Origin: Thiothrix subterranea
GTDB lineage: Bacteria > Pseudomonadota > Gammaproteobacteria > Thiotrichales > Thiotrichaceae
Length of the DNA: 64,000 nt
NCBI RefSeq assembly: GCF_030930995.1
Contig: NZ_CP133217.1
Coordinates: forward strand, 1,426,001 to 1,490,000
Direction of reading: 5' to 3'
Position numbers and translations under genes: made by a program. Positions within the stretch are counted from its first letter, which is position 1. Each line of letters opens with the position of its first letter. This document shows positions 3,523 to 56,191 of the stretch, in pieces. The notes beneath the pieces were generated by a model. The model was not told the DNA's origin. It was given only the letters and a program-made list of their open reading frames with translations, and searched no databases.

Positions 3523-4325
3523 CCGAGTAAGGAGGTTTTACGGTTTTTTTATCATGCTTTCTTCCCAGAGCGATTCCACCACGCCTTGTAACGTAATGAA
3601 TTGATCCGATTGCAATAAATACAAATACACGTGCGGGCCAATCAACTCCGGCAGAAAACCGCTTAAGCTGGTTGAATGCGTGTGTGGCTCCGCTGTTTCT
3701 AAGGTTTCATCGGTGGTAATGCTGTGATTGCTTTGTGTACGCCCGACATGGGCATGAACTCATGGGGTGCAAGTCCCCTGTAGGAGAACCCACCGTTCTG
3801 GCTTTCAGAGCGGCATAACTACTAGCCGACGGCAACTGCCACCCCGCGAGGGCTGGTGGGAAGGAAGCCGAAGCGCAAAACTGCGAGCCTACGGACAGAA
3901 ACGTCATACAAGGCTGAGTCTCAGGGATGAGTGGGCACAAGGTCACGAAATCCAGTGGTTCGCGAGATACAGTAAATGACGGGGTTGTGCAGTGACAGTT
4001 CATGTTCTTATTCGGGGAGATCTGCTTAACCAGCGGTCGTCGTGAACCCGTACAGGCGCGGGTATAGAAAAGGTCTGGGCGTTCTGGCATGTCATCCGCC
4101 AGCAGCGAGCGAACCGGATGACAAACGGCAGCGCGGCGGGAGCAATCTTCACCGTGATTAAGCAGAAGTCAGCAGACGGCATAGTAGCCCAACGCCCGGC
4201 GTAATGGCGGGGACACGGTGAAGGCCGGAACATCAGGGGAGGAGCAGCCCACCTGACCTTGGCGGCAGCGATGCCAAAGGCGGTCAACGTGGCAGCGAGC
4301 CTCCCACAACATCCATTGAGCAACC

Positions 4326-5590
4326 ATGAACATGGAACAAACCTTACTGAATGACATTTTGTTGCCCACCAACCTGCACCCGGCATGGAAACATGTGCGG
4401 CAGAACAAGGGCAGCGCAGGCATCGACGGCATCACGCTGGACGCCTACCCGGACTGGGCGAAAGCCCACTGGGCAAACATCCGGCGCGGGTTGCTGGCGG
4501 GTTATTATTGCCCGCAGCCAGTCAGACGGGTAGAGATTCCCAAACCGAACGGCGGTGTCCGTTTGCTGGGTATTCCCACCGTCAACGACCGGCTGATCCA
4601 GCAAGCCATCGTACAACGCCTGCAACCGTTGGTTGACCCCAGCTTCTCGGAACACAGCTACGGCTTCCGTCCGCACCGTTCAGCCCACCACGCCATCAGG
4701 GCGGTACAAGGCTTCATCCGGCGCGGCGACCGTTACGCCGTGGACATCGACCTGTCGAAATTCTTCGACAACGTAGACCACGACCTGCTGATGCACCGGC
4801 TGGGCAAACGGGTCAACGACCCGCATGTTCTTACCCTGATCGGCAAATACCTGCGGGCAGGTGTCAGCCACCACGGCAACATCGAAGCCACCCACGGGGT
4901 GTCCCCCAAGGTGGTCCACTGTCGCCACTGTTGGCAAACATCCTGCTCGACGACCTTGACCGGTTTCTGGAACGTAAAGGCTACCGGTTCGCCCGTTACG
5001 CCGACGACTTCGTGATTGGCGCAAAAACCCTTGCAGAAGGGCAGCGCATCAAAACTGAAGTCGAAACCTTTCTGCAAACCCTCAAGTTGCCGGTCAACGC
5101 CGACAAAAGCAGCGTCCTGCCGATGAACGAACTCTGCTTCCTCGGCTACCAGTTCCGGGGACTCCACCTTATCTGGAGTCCTGCGAGTCTGGCAGCCTTC
5201 AAGCACCGTATTCGCCAACTGACCAACCGCTCGTGGGGCGTCAGTTGGGAATACCGCTACCGGAAGCTGAAGGAATACCTCACCGGCTGGATGAACTACT
5301 TTGCTCTGGTCATCTTTGACCCGGTGGAACGGCTGGACTACTGGATACGGCGCAGAATCCGCATGTGCTACCTCAAGCAATGGCGGAAACCGCGCACCCG
5401 CATCCGCAACCTGATCAAGCTGGGCGTCCCGGAACGGTTGGCGGTCAGCATCGGGTTGAGTTCCAAAGGCTACTACCGGCTGGCAAAGACCAAGGCCATG
5501 CAAATGGGGCTGTCGAATCGCTGGCTGAAGGAACAAGGGTTAGTGTCGCTCAAGGATCAATGGGTCAAGTGCCGTTATCCCAACGGCTGA
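4326..5590 (+). pseudogene. ltrA: Group II intron reverse transcriptase/maturase, frameshifted
   Basis: The first frame (4326 to about 4904) carries RT domains: KNKGSAGIDGITLD-type start, IPKPNGGVRLLGIPTVNDR, SYGFRPHRSAHHAI and YAVDIDLSKFFDNVDHDLL. At the C-run 4903-4907 the frame is lost; the expected QGGPLSPLLANI continues in the frame starting at 4907. The second frame contains the catalytic YADD (FARYADDF), the thumb/maturase X domain with YLTGWMNYF, and a terminal GLVSLKDQWVKCRYPNG. Joined, the protein would be about 421 residues, normal for an endonuclease-less intron RT. One lost C (or two extra bases) explains the break. It could be a real mutation or a homopolymer sequencing error. 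Confidence 0.87.
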
Positions 5591-5662
5591 TGAACCGCCC
5601 TGTGCGGAGCCGCACGCAGGGTGGTGTGGGGGCTGGGGGTTAGAAACCTCCGGCTACCCGAT
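5590..5662 (+). ncRNA. Group II intron domains V and VI
   Basis: After the RT stop codon, a two-part hairpin (ACCGCCCT/AGGGTGGT with an inner TGCGG/CCGCA stem) matches the compact catalytic domain V. It is followed by GCTGGGGGTT/AACCTCCGGC, a domain VI-like stem with an A-rich loop that would hold the branch-point adenosine. Confidence 0.75.
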
Positions 5663-11198: not shown

Positions 11199-11429
11199 TT
11201 ATTCTTCTGGTGCTAATGCCAATTTGATCGGGCGAGCAGGCACGATCGTGGAAATAGCGTGTTTGTAGACTAATTGGCTGACGGTGTTCCCCAGCAATAC
11301 AACGAATTGGTCGAATGATTCGACGTGACCCTGTAATTTGATGCCGTTGACCAAGTAAATCGAGACAGGAATCCGTTCCTTTCTCAGAGCATTAAGGAAG
11401 GGTTCTTGTAATGTGTGCCCTTTCGACAT
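11199..11429 (-). CDS. hfq: RNA chaperone Hfq
   Basis: 76 residues with the Sm1 motif ([23 protein letters not shown] in two parts) and Sm2 with the YKHAIST signature. The proximal-face Gln8 and the YKH residues are present; the C-terminal tail is short and acidic, unlike the long E. coli tail. It is a hexamer that pairs sRNAs with mRNAs and binds A-rich ARN repeats on its distal face. That matters for the small RNAs proposed at 34587 and 35674. Confidence 0.98.
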
Positions 11430-32982: not shown

Positions 32983-33122
32983 CATCGACAAGGCGGCACT
33001 GGTGTACGGTCAGATGAATGAACCACCCGGCAACCGTCTGCGCGTCGCGTTGACTGGTCTGATGATGAAGGCTGCACTGGATGCTAAGCGGTCACTGAGT
33101 TTCGACGAGTCCGCAAAAAACA
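32983..33122 (+). pseudogene. Chimeric relic of atpD and atpC
   Basis: Bases 32983-33063 match an internal stretch of atpD with a handful of differences ([17 protein letters not shown] is readable). After a few unrelated bases the sequence jumps to the end of atpC and the noncoding DNA behind it (CGGTCACTGAGTTTCGAC, then GTCCGCAAAAAACA). The 1.1 kb between these parts in the real operon is missing. The relic is not a gene; it marks a duplication and deletion at the right edge of the methylase segment. Confidence 0.85.
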
Positions 33123-33990
33123 AAATATCCACCAAGAATGAGGGCGTGGCGGTTTCAAACCAATAAGGTAGGAATTCCTTGCCTTTGGAAATAAACAGCA
33201 GTACATCAAACGGGTTATAAACACTCTCCCCCATCCAGTTATAGCCGTTGTACCAGGAACGTACCAGCGACATATCCGCGCCTTGCAAATGTTCGCCGAA
33301 ATGTCGTTCCAACTCGGTTTGGGTATAACCGCACAACGCGCTGTAACGCGGGTCGAGGGTAATATCTTCCAAGTTATTCAAGCCACTGAACAGCGATACT
33401 TTGGAAAATTTGCTCACCCCCGTGAGGAAAGCAAAGCGGATATAGGCATCGTTGTCTTTGATTACCGAATACAAATTGCGTAAACCATTGCGCATTTCCG
33501 CTGCCACACTGCTGTCGGTGATATTGTCGAGAAGCGGTTTGTCGTATTCATCCACTAAAATAACGACATTGCTTCCATATTTATCCTTAGCTTTGCGGAT
33601 AAGTTCAGCGAAACAGCCAGACAGACTTTTTTCTTCACAGGTAATGCCGAGTCGTTGCTGATTAATACGTAACAATTCACCGATTTTTTCGTTCAGTTCC
33701 GCTCGGTTGGCTAATTGCCCCGAACCAAAGCTGATTGCAATCACTGGGTATTGCACCGCCCAATCCCAATGCGGGTGGATGTGCAAACCCTGAAATAATG
33801 CCTCATTACCCGCAAATAACTGATGCAAAGTGTCTACCAACAAGGATTTCCCGAAACGGCGCGGGCGTGAGAGAAAGTAATACGAACCCTTATCAAGCAA
33901 TGTTTGAATGTGAGCGGTTTTATCCACATACACGCAATCATCCGCCATGATTTTTGCGAGAGTGCTGATGCCGATAGGTAACTTCTTCAT
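33010..33990 (-). pseudogene. AAA-ATPase-like protein (PF09820 type), C-terminally truncated
   Basis: The start has MKKLPIGISTLAKIMADD and YVDKTAHIQTLLDKG, Walker A as SRPRRFGKSLL and Walker B as VVILVDEYDKPLLDN. These mark the AAA-ATPase/PD-(D/E)XK_9 family, normally 510-560 residues. Homology ends at about residue 288 ([13 protein letters not shown]), exactly where the atpC-like relic begins at 33122. The last 38 codons are antisense relic DNA. The C-terminal nuclease-like domain is absent, so it is probably nonfunctional. Confidence 0.85.
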
Positions 33991-34051
33991 GTGCAGCGCC
34001 TGCCGTGGGTGATAGGGGCATTATAGCGGGTTTTGCGGTTGACCACGCTGC

Positions 34052-34366
34052 TTAGAAAAAGGCTTTATCTTGTTCCCACATCACATTTTTCTGCTTAGCG
34101 ATGGCAGCTTTCAGCAATTCTAACAAGGGGTAAGCGCGGACATTGCTGCTGACAGCGGAATCTTCAGCATCTTGCTTGCTGGCGTCGTCGCTCTGGCTGG
34201 CTTGCGCTTTTAAGGCGGCTTCAAGACATTGCAGCGCTGTTGCCACGTCCTCGGCACGGATGGCGCTGGGGATTGTGCCACTATGCCCCATCATGCGAAT
34301 CAGGGCTTTCGCATCCTTTTCAAACATGGAAACACTGGCGGCGGCGGGGCTGGTGAAGCGGATCAT
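34052..34366 (-). CDS. DUF1840-family protein
   Basis: 104 residues from the ATG at 34366 (MIRFTSPAAASVSMFEKDAK); a longer start at 34405 is less likely because family members begin at MI(T/R)F. MMGHSGTIPSAIRAEDVATAL is the conserved core. The function is unknown; it occurs widely in beta- and gammaproteobacteria. An operator-like palindrome cluster begins 55 bases upstream. Confidence 0.82.
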   Translation of the reverse strand: MIRFTSPAAASVSMFEKDAKALIRMMGHSGTIPSAIRAEDVATALQCLEAALKAQASQSDDASKQDAEDSAVSSNVRAYPLLELLKAAIAKQKNVMWEQDKAFF

Positions 34367-34420
34367 GGCTTGCTCCTTGTCAAAATCACAAAAGTCATCT
34401 GCCAATCATATACCGAAAGC

Positions 34421-34476
34421 CTGTCACACTGGCAGATTTGTCAGCCACTGACAGGATACCTGTCGTTTTCTGACAG
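34421..34476 (+). promoter_or_regulatory. Cluster of CTGACAG/CTGTCAG palindromes (candidate enhancer site, copy 1)
   Basis: Three interlocking dyads are visible: TGTCAG-CCA-CTGACA, GACAGG-ATA-CCTGTC and CTGTCGTTTTCTGACAG. The last is repeated exactly upstream of copy 2. It ends 84 bases before the sigma-54 promoter at 34561, a normal distance for an activator site. It may also control the divergent DUF1840 gene. Confidence 0.6.
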
Positions 34477-34560
34477 CATTGCCAAGGTAGTGAGTGGGCA
34501 GGTGTTTAGCGAAAATCAGAAAATTTATAATTATCAATGGTTTATATTTTTAGTGGGCGT

Positions 34561-34576
34561 TGGCACAAGGGTTGCA
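34561..34576 (+). promoter_or_regulatory. Sigma-54 promoter, copy 1
   Basis: TGGCACAAGGGTTGCA matches the sigma-54 consensus TGGCACGRNNNTTGCW at every defined position except one, with exact -24/-12 spacing. The predicted start is near 34587. Confidence 0.85.
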
Positions 34577-34586
34577 ATAGTCCTTT

Positions 34587-34729
34587 CAGTCAGAACAGCG
34601 AAACAACAACAAGTATTTATCAGCAAGCCCCAAGAGGCAGAGAGCAGGCTTAAACATTAATAACAATAACTTGCCTGACCATGCTTCGACTCCTCTAACC
34701 CCCGGCTCAATAGCGGGGGTATTTATTTT
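34587..34729 (+). ncRNA. Candidate sigma-54-dependent small RNA, copy 1
   Basis: About 142 nt from the predicted start to the T-tract. It contains two runs of ARN triplets, AACAACAACAAG and AATAACAATAAC, of the kind Hfq binds on its distal face. A stem pairs CAGGC with GCCTG and displays the second run in its loop. There is a C/U-rich stretch with CTCCTC, complementary to ribosome-binding sites. It ends in an intrinsic terminator (CCCCCG...CGGGGG, tail TATTTATTTTT). No reading frame of note. I do not recognise the family; the organisation recalls CrcZ-type RNAs. It could instead be a leader. Confidence 0.62.
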
Positions 34730-34730
34730 T

Positions 34731-35105
34731 CTAGTTGGATGTTCGCTGATACCCAGCAATTTCCAGCAAAACATCCGCCAGTGAAGGCTCGTGGCTATCG
34801 CGAATAATTTCACCGTCATGCTTGTGGTGCGAAAACGTCGCCACCTGCTGATGATGCGGCGCATTATCGTAACGAAAAATCATCGTTTGACTGGCATCCA
34901 TGTATTGATAACGATACTTCACCTTACCCGCATGGTCGGTATTTTTGACTTCGGCAAAGTCCAATCTGTCGCCTCCATCAAACACGATAGAGCCCGCGAT
35001 ATAGCCTTGCCTGTTATTGTAAAGGGTTTTGCGAAGTGACAAGTTTTGCGTGTTTGGAACAGTTTGCAGCACTTGCTCGATTTGTGCGAAATAGGCTTCG
35101 ATCAT
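34731..35105 (-). CDS. DUF6516/TumE-like toxin
   Basis: 124 residues. The conserved segments GYIAGSIVFDGGDRLDFAEVK, KVKYRYQYMD and IFRYDNAPHH match the DUF6516 family, toxins of TumE-type pairs. The start overlaps the antitoxin gene stop as ATGA. The stop codon lies at the edge of repeat copy 1. The mechanism is not established for most members. Confidence 0.72.
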   Translation of the reverse strand: MIEAYFAQIEQVLQTVPNTQNLSLRKTLYNNRQGYIAGSIVFDGGDRLDFAEVKNTDHAGKVKYRYQYMDASQTMIFRYDNAPHHQQVATFSHHKHDGEIIRDSHEPSLADVLLEIAGYQRTSN

Positions 35106-35410
35106 TGCAATGCCTGCAACTGCTGCTGATTGTCGCGCAACATTTCATACAACCCCGACCACAACATATAGTCTTCGCTATCATCCACAGCGCCTTGTTC
35201 AAACTGACGGTAGAACACGTCAGATGGCATCTGGTATTGTTCTTCAAATTTTTTCAAATCCAGACGCAAATTCAAAATACCCCGTTTCAATTCATGCACC
35301 TGAAACGCGATGATGTTCTGGGCGAAAGTCTCCTGATCCGCGACTTGGGACATTAACAGACGTAAACGTTGCGCAGTGGCAGGTTGTACGTTCAACTCTA
35401 AATTTAACAT
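35102..35410 (-). CDS. Putative antitoxin partner of the DUF6516 protein
   Basis: 102 residues from the ATG at 35410 (MLNLELNVQ); longer starts at 35449 or 35416 exist. The region HELKRGILNLRLDLKKFEEQ and EDYMLWSGLYEMLRDN recurs in small proteins encoded before DUF6516 genes. Gene order (antitoxin first, 4-base overlap) fits a toxin-antitoxin operon. The call rests on context and pattern memory. Confidence 0.6.
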   Translation of the reverse strand: MLNLELNVQPATAQRLRLLMSQVADQETFAQNIIAFQVHELKRGILNLRLDLKKFEEQYQMPSDVFYRQFEQGAVDDSEDYMLWSGLYEMLRDNQQQLQALQ

Positions 35411-35523
35411 GATCATCGCCTCCGTTAGCAGACTTGCTGTGATAAGCATAATCCATAAAGACCGCCCGAACCAGCCGATAGATCAGGCCGTAATGACTCC
35501 AATTCCACGTGGCCCAGTCACCT

Positions 35524-35561
35524 CTGTCACACTCTGCCGCCACCCTGTCGTTTTCTGACAG
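35524..35561 (+). promoter_or_regulatory. CTGTCG-N4-CTGACAG dyad (candidate enhancer site, copy 2)
   Basis: CTGTCGTTTTCTGACAG plus the following GCATTGCCAAG is identical to copy 1. A further CTGTCAC half-site lies upstream. It ends 86 bases before the second sigma-54 promoter. The intervening sequence has diverged much more, so this block looks conserved by selection. Confidence 0.58.
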
Positions 35562-35647
35562 CATTGCCAAGCCAATGCCTAGCACTCTTTCCCGCCAAAA
35601 ACAGTCTCAGGCAATATTATCAATAACTTAATAATAATCATCAACGT

Positions 35648-35663
35648 TGGCACAAGGGTTGCA
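35648..35663 (+). promoter_or_regulatory. Sigma-54 promoter, copy 2
   Basis: The same TGGCACAAGGGTTGCA as copy 1; predicted transcription start near 35674, about 200 bases before the speA ATG. Confidence 0.85.
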
Positions 35664-35673
35664 ATAGTTCTTT

Positions 35674-35815
35674 CAGTCAGAACAGCGAAACAACAACAAG
35701 TATTTATCAGCAAGCCCCAAGAGGCAGAGAGCAGGCTTAAACATTAATAACAATAACTTGCCTGACCATGCTTCGACTCCTCTAACCCCCGGCTCAATAG
35801 CGGGGGTATTTATTT
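35674..35815 (+). ncRNA. Candidate sigma-54-dependent small RNA, copy 2 (or speA leader)
   Basis: The same transcript as copy 1, with both ARN runs and the CCCCCG/CGGGGG terminator at 35786-35806 followed by TATTTATTTT. Because speA begins 62 bases past the terminator, read-through could make this a speA attenuator leader. Copy 1 has no such gene behind it on this strand, which favours a free small RNA. Confidence 0.6.
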
Positions 35816-35877
35816 TGGCAACTTTTCTAGTATCCTGCACACCTTAAAACCGTGCCATCCACGCCAGCAGGAATACC

Positions 35878-56002: not shown

Positions 56003-56150
56003 CGACTCGCTAGAGTCGCGCCTTGTCAGGCCGGTATCGGACTTGTCAGGTTGATTGAACCTGCTTACCGTTGCGAGGGCAGTGTGGGGTTTGCACCCAC
56101 TTCCCGTTTAACGCTTCCCGAAAACGATGAAGCGCACCTGAACAGGAGGG
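56003..56150 (-). promoter_or_regulatory. Cobalamin riboswitch ahead of btuB
   Basis: Read on the minus strand: CACTGCCCTCGCAACGGTAA (core) and then the B12 box AGTCCGATACCGGCC at 56043-56029, which fits the AGYCMGGAGACCKGCC consensus well. An upstream GTGGGTGCAAACCCCAC stem is present. A CGACTC/GAGTCG hairpin at 56003-56018 lies between the box and btuB and may be the expression platform. It should repress btuB and the genes behind it when adenosylcobalamin is plentiful. Confidence 0.92.
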
Positions 56151-56191
56151 GCAAACTACGGGATTATTCCGGCAGAGTCAAACCTTTCGCA

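Follow-up and report, generated by a model that had tools for sequence, protein, structure and literature searches.

A sigma-54-associated small RNA family of Thiothrix and related sulfur bacteria, probably PilR-controlled and possibly acting as a CrcZ-like Hfq decoy

Related systems and the duplicated unit

CrcZ is presented, in the excerpts available from PMC4063720 and PMC8266614, as an RNA under RpoN control with six (ARN)n runs that titrates Hfq away from A-rich ribosome-binding sites, and the abstract of PMC8871633 describes the CbrAB system as unique to Pseudomonaceae. PilR sites, in the available part of PMC6058289, consist of a NifA-like TGT-N11-AGA sequence plus nearby GTCT elements. 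Sponges of the CsrB/RsmZ type have repeated modules in one non-coding transcript and several paralogues. GlmY of enterobacteria (GlrR/QseF, sigma-54) is a sigma-54 small RNA that follows a decoy logic, and the site of its activator has TGTC...GACA half-sites in N10 spacing.

The 64-kb stretch of Thiothrix subterranea DNA analysed here (the window) contains a 172-nt unit twice, at 34558-34729 and 35645-35816 (spacing 1087), and the preliminary description of two copies differing by one base was borne out (171/172 identical, 99.4%). Each copy has the sequence TGGCACAAGGGTTGCA, at 34561-34576 and 35648-35663 on the plus strand, which agrees with all specified positions of TGGCACRNNNNTTGCW and is read, as it had been before, as the sigma-54 (-24/-12) promoter of that copy; these two are the only exact matches in the 64 kb. 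With up to one mismatch, TGGCACRNNNNTTGCW has three matches in the window versus 2.8 expected, so the motif alone is not significant, and we place the weight of the promoter evidence on its recurrence throughout the small RNA family described below. The predicted small RNAs span 34587-34729 (copy 1, from repeat, fold and family) and 35674-35816 (copy 2, from the repeat) on the plus strand, with starts derived from promoter spacing only, and each comprises about 142 nt of non-coding RNA between predicted start and terminator. Mechanical open reading frames cross the copies on both strands, yet the earlier statement that this stretch holds no open reading frame is right in substance, because the family varies by compensatory base pairs and indels.

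Two AAN runs, AACAACAACAAG (34602-34613, plus strand, in copy 1) and AATAACAATAAC, were confirmed in each copy, where the preliminary description had reported two runs of ARN triplets; they place 24 nt of each copy within runs of at least four triplets, a content reached by none of 2000 first-order Markov resamples. The predicted fold of a copy (-31.8 kcal/mol, z -2.0; 8 of 200 shuffles fold equally well) contains the hairpin of the intrinsic terminator that had been proposed, located with its T-rich tail at 34699-34729 in copy 1 (from fold and sequence) and at 35786-35816 in copy 2 (from sequence, as in copy 1), both on the plus strand. This hairpin is absent from the list of a simple terminator scan, probably because its stem is bulged. 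The CTCCTC stretch noted previously is present in both copies and common within the genus Thiothrix, but is not kept in the other aligned genera, except as a shorter CGACTCCT in one.

Compared with CrcZ/CrcY/CrcX, the window copies share a sigma-54 promoter (judged by sequence) with upstream sites of a two-component activator, the existence of several paralogues, several (ARN)n runs with n of at least four (two per window copy and four in a third, ruvA-linked copy, versus six in CrcZ according to the excerpt of PMC4063720) and a proposed titration of Hfq. They differ in their structured module with its conserved AGCAAGCCCC, in a pilA-type upstream element, in their neighbours and in length, at about 142 nt for the short window copies versus 407 nt for CrcZ (same excerpt). 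The Rfam model of CrcZ (RF01675) gave at best 17.2 bits (E 0.54) versus a gathering score of 95, in a 48-nt AAN array of the ruvA-linked copy. A GlrR/GlmY reading was set aside, the element of our genes having N7 rather than the N10 spacing of GlmY sites, the copies having no Rfam match and the GlrR score reaching no more than 401 of 763 bits in ten of the 11 enhancer-binding proteins of the genome. A CsrA-type sponge was likewise set aside: the window copies have no GGA motif, their own motifs being AAN and AGCAAGCCCC.

Distribution and fold of the RNA family

The same genome has a third, longer small RNA gene, situated after ruvA (locus L041; the names ruvA and speA are read from sequence, not from a family search). 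Its promoter and upstream element are those of the window copies, and its longer transcript has four AAN runs of at least four triplets and an additional hairpin-terminated part. A blast search with the 172-bp unit gave matches in 21 of 57 genomes, including all 16 Thiothrix genomes (own genome counted). A covariance model, R1, built from the 82-position module in alignment A2 (47 rows), matched 56 of 63 genomes of the order, at up to six places in a genome, and all eight genera searched were represented. In a class-wide sample R1 matched 3 of 369 genomes, own included, all of Thiotrichaceae. Weak relatives may have escaped both R1 searches, which were run with stricter filters. Named genomes, searched with a DNA pattern, gave 18 stretches, which belong to Thiothrix species, to other Thiotrichaceae and to a single bin labelled 'Gammaproteobacteria'. 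Tandem arrays of two or three modules occur in several genomes in the ruvA-linked gene, and also in other genera.

The small RNA had not been recognised before, and no Rfam family covered either copy at the gathering score in a scan of the whole window; at a relaxed threshold, five loci again yielded no family and only a few sub-threshold matches resembling chance. ARN runs are enriched in the family as in the window copies, occupying 26.7 nt per gene versus 5.8 in resamples, with enrichment in 68 of 70 genes; among the 43 short-leader genes listed, 7 (L005, L006, L008, L025, L026, L029 and L163) lack any run in the leader that reaches three triplets. The repeats are very probably members of a genuine sigma-54 small RNA family. 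The earlier reading of a duplicated sigma-54-dependent small RNA with Hfq-type ARN runs is thereby supported, with conservation reaching far beyond the locus, and it can on these comparisons be extended to a multi-gene family with a defined fold, a predicted regulator and members in every searched genus of this order of sulfur bacteria.

The module occupies 34613-34694 in copy 1 (from covariation and model R1) and 35700-35781 in copy 2 (covariance match G000:C2:1461700-1461781), on the plus strand in both. A leader, mostly with an AAN run, is followed by AGCAAGCCCC (34622-34631 in copy 1, conserved columns, mean unpaired probability 0.80), an outer stem (34634-34639/34682-34687), an inner stem (34645-34649/34673-34677) and a loop of AAN triplets (34659-34670), all on the plus strand; after the loop come CGACTCCTCT, conserved at genus level, and the terminator hairpin.

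In alignment A2, 95.8% of the pair cells are paired, a value that holds for rows picked to fit one fold, since divergent second modules were removed; slid controls gave only 22-39%. Changes on both sides occurred in 7 of 11 pairs, and double-change cells numbered 42 versus 15.7 in shuffles, with no shuffle of 500 reaching as many, while further pair types were not above shuffles (200 of 500 as high). We take these compensatory changes as support for the outer and inner stem. The parent alignment, A1, had 53 rows, namely 52 of 56 module matches (the off-target L005, overlapping L034, truncated L014 and near-duplicate L004 being dropped) plus L018, which is misaligned there; for A2 the second ruvA-linked modules of L034, L036, L037 and L039 (outer stem misfit), the decayed L032 and the duplicates or near-duplicates L001 copy 2 and L025 were removed and L014 was restored. 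AGCAAGCCCC is nearly invariant among the aligned genera, and the phase of the AAN triplets is conserved as well (A50, A51, A53, A54 and A56 invariant in the alignment). Mean unpaired probabilities over 47 single modules were 0.93 for the AAN loops and 0.89 for AGCAAGCCCC; in the full ruvA-linked transcript AGCAAGCCCC is half unpaired (0.50) and the two later AAN arrays reach 0.71 and 0.63.

The upstream element and its probable activator

An element of the form TGTC-N7-GACA precedes the promoters. Copy 1 has a distal site, TGTCAGCCACTGACA (34439-34453, an exact match), and a proximal one, TGTCGTTTTCTGACA (34461-34475, 85 bp before the -24 box), and copy 2 has TGTCGTTTTCTGACA at 35546-35560, 87 bp before its -24 box, all on the plus strand. 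The element of the window copies lies within CCTGTCGTTTTCTGACAGCATTGCCAAG and belongs to a direct repeat of 28 nt, exact in sequence and situated outside the 172-bp unit, that the preliminary description had not noted. These three sites are the only ones in the window, all upstream of the two small RNA genes, and three or more were reached in 5 of 100 window shuffles. Searching the own genome for the element together with a -24/-12 promoter, under strict and relaxed settings, returned exactly the three small RNA genes, and the reversed control returned no match.

Among 72 pairs of promoter and module, a count that includes at least two off-position promoter-like matches (L017 plus strand and a second L046 match) and omits loci L052-L103 and those above L171, the element was exact in 54, had one mismatch in 16 and three mismatches in 2; Markov-resampled upstream DNA gave 0.11% exact and 3.2% with one mismatch. 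It stands 85-91 bp before the -24 box in 52 of the 70 pairs with at most one mismatch, the others spanning 51 to 123 bp. Within the genus 39 of 44 pairs have it exactly, as do 15 of 28 in other genera, where the remaining 13 have one mismatch; a short copy, L018 (G009), is without it. The element played no part in how these loci were chosen: it was not contained in the 172-bp query used to fetch those of Thiothrix, and those of other genera came from the RNA model or from blast with the unit.

At the pilA loci of all 16 Thiothrix genomes the same element stands 61-86 bp before a TGGCAC-N5-NTGC promoter, with an exact sequence in 15 of them and one mismatch in the remaining one; one contig-edge pilin locus of G002 is without it and another pilin locus of that genome has it. 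The own-genome search misses pilA because the pilA -12 box reads ATGC, and therefore further sites with weaker promoters may exist. A histidine kinase and a sigma-54 response regulator are encoded within about 3 kb of the own-genome pilin genes; we call them PilS and PilR by our own reading, no library model having named these proteins. Element and sigma-54 promoter thus occur at the small RNA genes as they do at pilA, in the same genome and genus (70 of the 72 pairs within one mismatch), and a PilS-PilR pair stands beside pilA in the own genome; the difference from a PilR regulon is that the product is an RNA. The PilR sites in the available part of PMC6058289 are similar to TGTC-N7-GACA, although their spacing is not the same.

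Since the small RNA genes and pilA share this upstream element, PilR is the likely activator, rather than a CbrB-like protein, and PilR probably activates the small RNA genes. That a different enhancer-binding protein of the NifA, NtrC or GlrR type does so is unlikely, although the genome encodes 11 strong PF00158 proteins, with NifA and NtrC above cut-offs among them, any of which could be the activator. The half-sites of NifA (TGT-N10-ACA) and GlrR (TGTC-N10-GACA) resemble those found here but their spacing does not, the element is shared by the pilA promoters of all 16 genomes with a PilSR-like pair adjoining pilA, and ten of the 11 proteins, when scanned, fell far below the GlrR cut-off. 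None of these ten was named CbrB, and their listings held no CbrB model. Should PilR control be correct, the family would provide a PilR-controlled small RNA, of which our searches of the open-licence literature, in the text they returned, found no other example, and would tie the sensing of pilin to global post-transcriptional regulation. The same kind of search, within the same kind of text, found no such RNAs in Thiothrix or Beggiatoa.

A second PilR-like protein is encoded at 958-2478 of locus L061 (G000:C2:3565381), with no kinase obvious beside its gene and with glutamate at the presumed phospho-acceptor aspartate (CLTEWELPDG versus CLTDMKLPDG in PilR). This paralogue is possibly constitutively active and could act at the same element.

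Candidate functions and genomic neighbourhood

A presumed protein partner is encoded in the window itself, as hfq lies at 11223-11411 on the minus strand (domain-match range; PF17209, E 3.9e-29), and residues 1-71 of its product align with a solved Hfq chain, PDB 1u1s_A, from Pseudomonas aeruginosa. In 15 of 16 Thiothrix genomes the pilA leader has, at its Shine-Dalgarno site, an Hfq-type AAYAAYAAGGA; these do not count as 15 independent events because the leaders are orthologues within one genus. That of G005 reads AACAACTAAGGA instead, and in leaders followed by two ATGs the exact start of pilA is uncertain. Among window open reading frames, with starts chosen heuristically, 2 of 58 have an AAN run of three triplets at -32 to -1. 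Pairing of the small RNA with the own-genome pilA leader was not above chance, 238 of 300 resampled leaders pairing at least as well. In many pilA leaders (e.g. L075) a short GTCT-NN-GGAC-like hairpin also precedes the AAN run and may be another site of control.

The family, its fold and promoter, the element shared with pilA, the AAN runs and the run at the pilA ribosome-binding site are all legible in the DNA, whereas transcription, binding by PilR and by Hfq, and the direction of the effect on pilA are inferred. PilR or its paralogue would bind TGTC-N7-GACA and sigma-54 RNA polymerase would transcribe the small RNA genes; each transcript would present AAN-rich loops on structured modules, one here and several in other genera and in the ruvA-linked copy of several genomes, mostly with further AAN runs in the leader. 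By binding at the distal face of Hfq the loops would titrate this protein, as CrcZ does, releasing mRNAs that have an AAN run at the ribosome-binding site, with pilA as the first candidate beneficiary through its AAYAAYAAGGA. In such a coherent feed-forward loop PilR would increase the transcription of pilA and, by way of the decoy RNAs, its translation as well.

We favour this reading because the ARN enrichment, the CrcZ precedent, the AAN run of pilA and the lack of pairing between small RNA and pilA point to it together, and consider a CrcZ-like Hfq decoy that permits pilA translation under PilR and sigma-54 the best explanation, to be held tentatively. Titration of Hfq could quite plausibly be the main function of these RNAs, and pilA is possibly one of its main beneficiaries; that PilSR drives such RNAs in parallel to pilA, so that one signal both transcribes and unlocks an Hfq-blocked pilin mRNA, is a proposal we make with some reservation. 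Against a decoy stand the short copies, whose two runs are few for a sponge, and the less open later AAN arrays of the full ruvA-linked transcript (0.71 and 0.63). Titration alone also does not explain AGCAAGCCCC, since this most conserved part has no ARN motif. If the decoy reading holds, the CrcZ principle would be used outside carbon catabolite repression, and, with PilSR in control, Hfq titration would serve surface or pilin sensing in sulfur bacteria.

An Hfq-dependent base-pairing RNA under the same PilR/sigma-54 control, with AGCAAGCCCC as a seed for mRNAs in trans, the AAN runs assigned to the distal face of Hfq and the U-rich tail to its pore, is a possibility to be reckoned with, if a doubtful one. 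ARN runs occur in ordinary Hfq-dependent base-pairing RNAs too, and this reading stays alive because the decoy model leaves the conserved AGCAAGCCCC unexplained, a stretch both nearly invariant among the aligned genera and unpaired (0.89 over 47 modules). In each of the 16 Thiothrix genomes, moreover, the 10-mer AGCAAGCCCC outnumbers its reversed control; the own genome has 21 occurrences versus 3 of the control, exceeding what the small RNA genes explain, and the excess may reflect base composition or codon use, or hidden targets. A search for seed targets found no conserved one at translation starts among the 60 of 61 non-module sites listed, from 5 of 16 Thiothrix genomes; neighbours of the sites formed related genes in only four clusters of 2-3 members, by a crude clustering that took the longer open reading frame per site and in which own-genome sites were not among the matches listed. 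Seed complements in the loci of pilR, the orphan pilR-like gene, hfq and pilin amounted to a few 9-mers resembling chance. Together with the lack of complementarity to the own-genome pilA leader, the tandem modules of some transcripts fit an Hfq decoy better than a seed RNA.

It is rather improbable that the RNAs act as a decoy or scaffold for another RNA-binding protein that reads AGCAAGCCC plus hairpin, with Hfq merely stabilising them: an unpaired stretch conserved in its very sequence next to a conserved hairpin, and the repetition of modules within transcripts, would suit such a protein, but there is no candidate for it and the AAN phase is conserved too. Attenuation of speA by copy 2, the main alternative of the preliminary description, is very improbable and was set aside, because although about 62 bp separate the end of copy 2 from the predicted start of speA and a copy directly precedes speA in 7 of 16 Thiothrix genomes, direct linkage is limited to these 7, no copy examined elsewhere adjoins speA, and other copies have the same promoter and module beside unrelated genes, after ruvA in 14 of 16 Thiothrix genomes or next to a DUF1840 gene.

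The evidence on the evolution of the copies is mixed. Against the 99.4% identity of the two copies in the own genome and 96.5% in G004, positional counterparts elsewhere are 88-95% identical, as after gene conversion or re-duplication; for G008 and G012 the DUF1840-side counterparts are 96.5% identical versus 91.9% and 89.4% for the copies within each genome. In a close relative, G001, the single copy is flanked upstream as copy 1 is and downstream as copy 2 is, an arrangement that recombination between the repeats would leave. The two copies of the window enclose a small gene pair (34731-35449, minus strand), the first a TumE-family toxin (PF20126); the second (35102-35449) matched no Pfam family and may encode its antitoxin. 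No match to the pair was found in the single-copy locus of G001. A decayed-looking small RNA copy at 2010-2129 of L032 (G006), with its promoter absent and terminator altered, adjoins relatives of this gene pair, and a 40-nt fragment corresponding to the 3' part of the unit follows an unrelated small gene at 2001-2040 of L050 (G015). Upstream of copy 1, window positions 33010-34405 (minus strand) hold a predicted AAA-ATPase_like protein (PF09820) and a DUF1840 gene (34052-34405), and a DUF1840 gene adjoins a small RNA copy in several Thiothrix genomes. Elsewhere in the window, three Rfam matches mark a group II intron (3840-5662, plus strand), and a cobalamin riboswitch (RF00174) lies at 56012-56156 on the minus strand.
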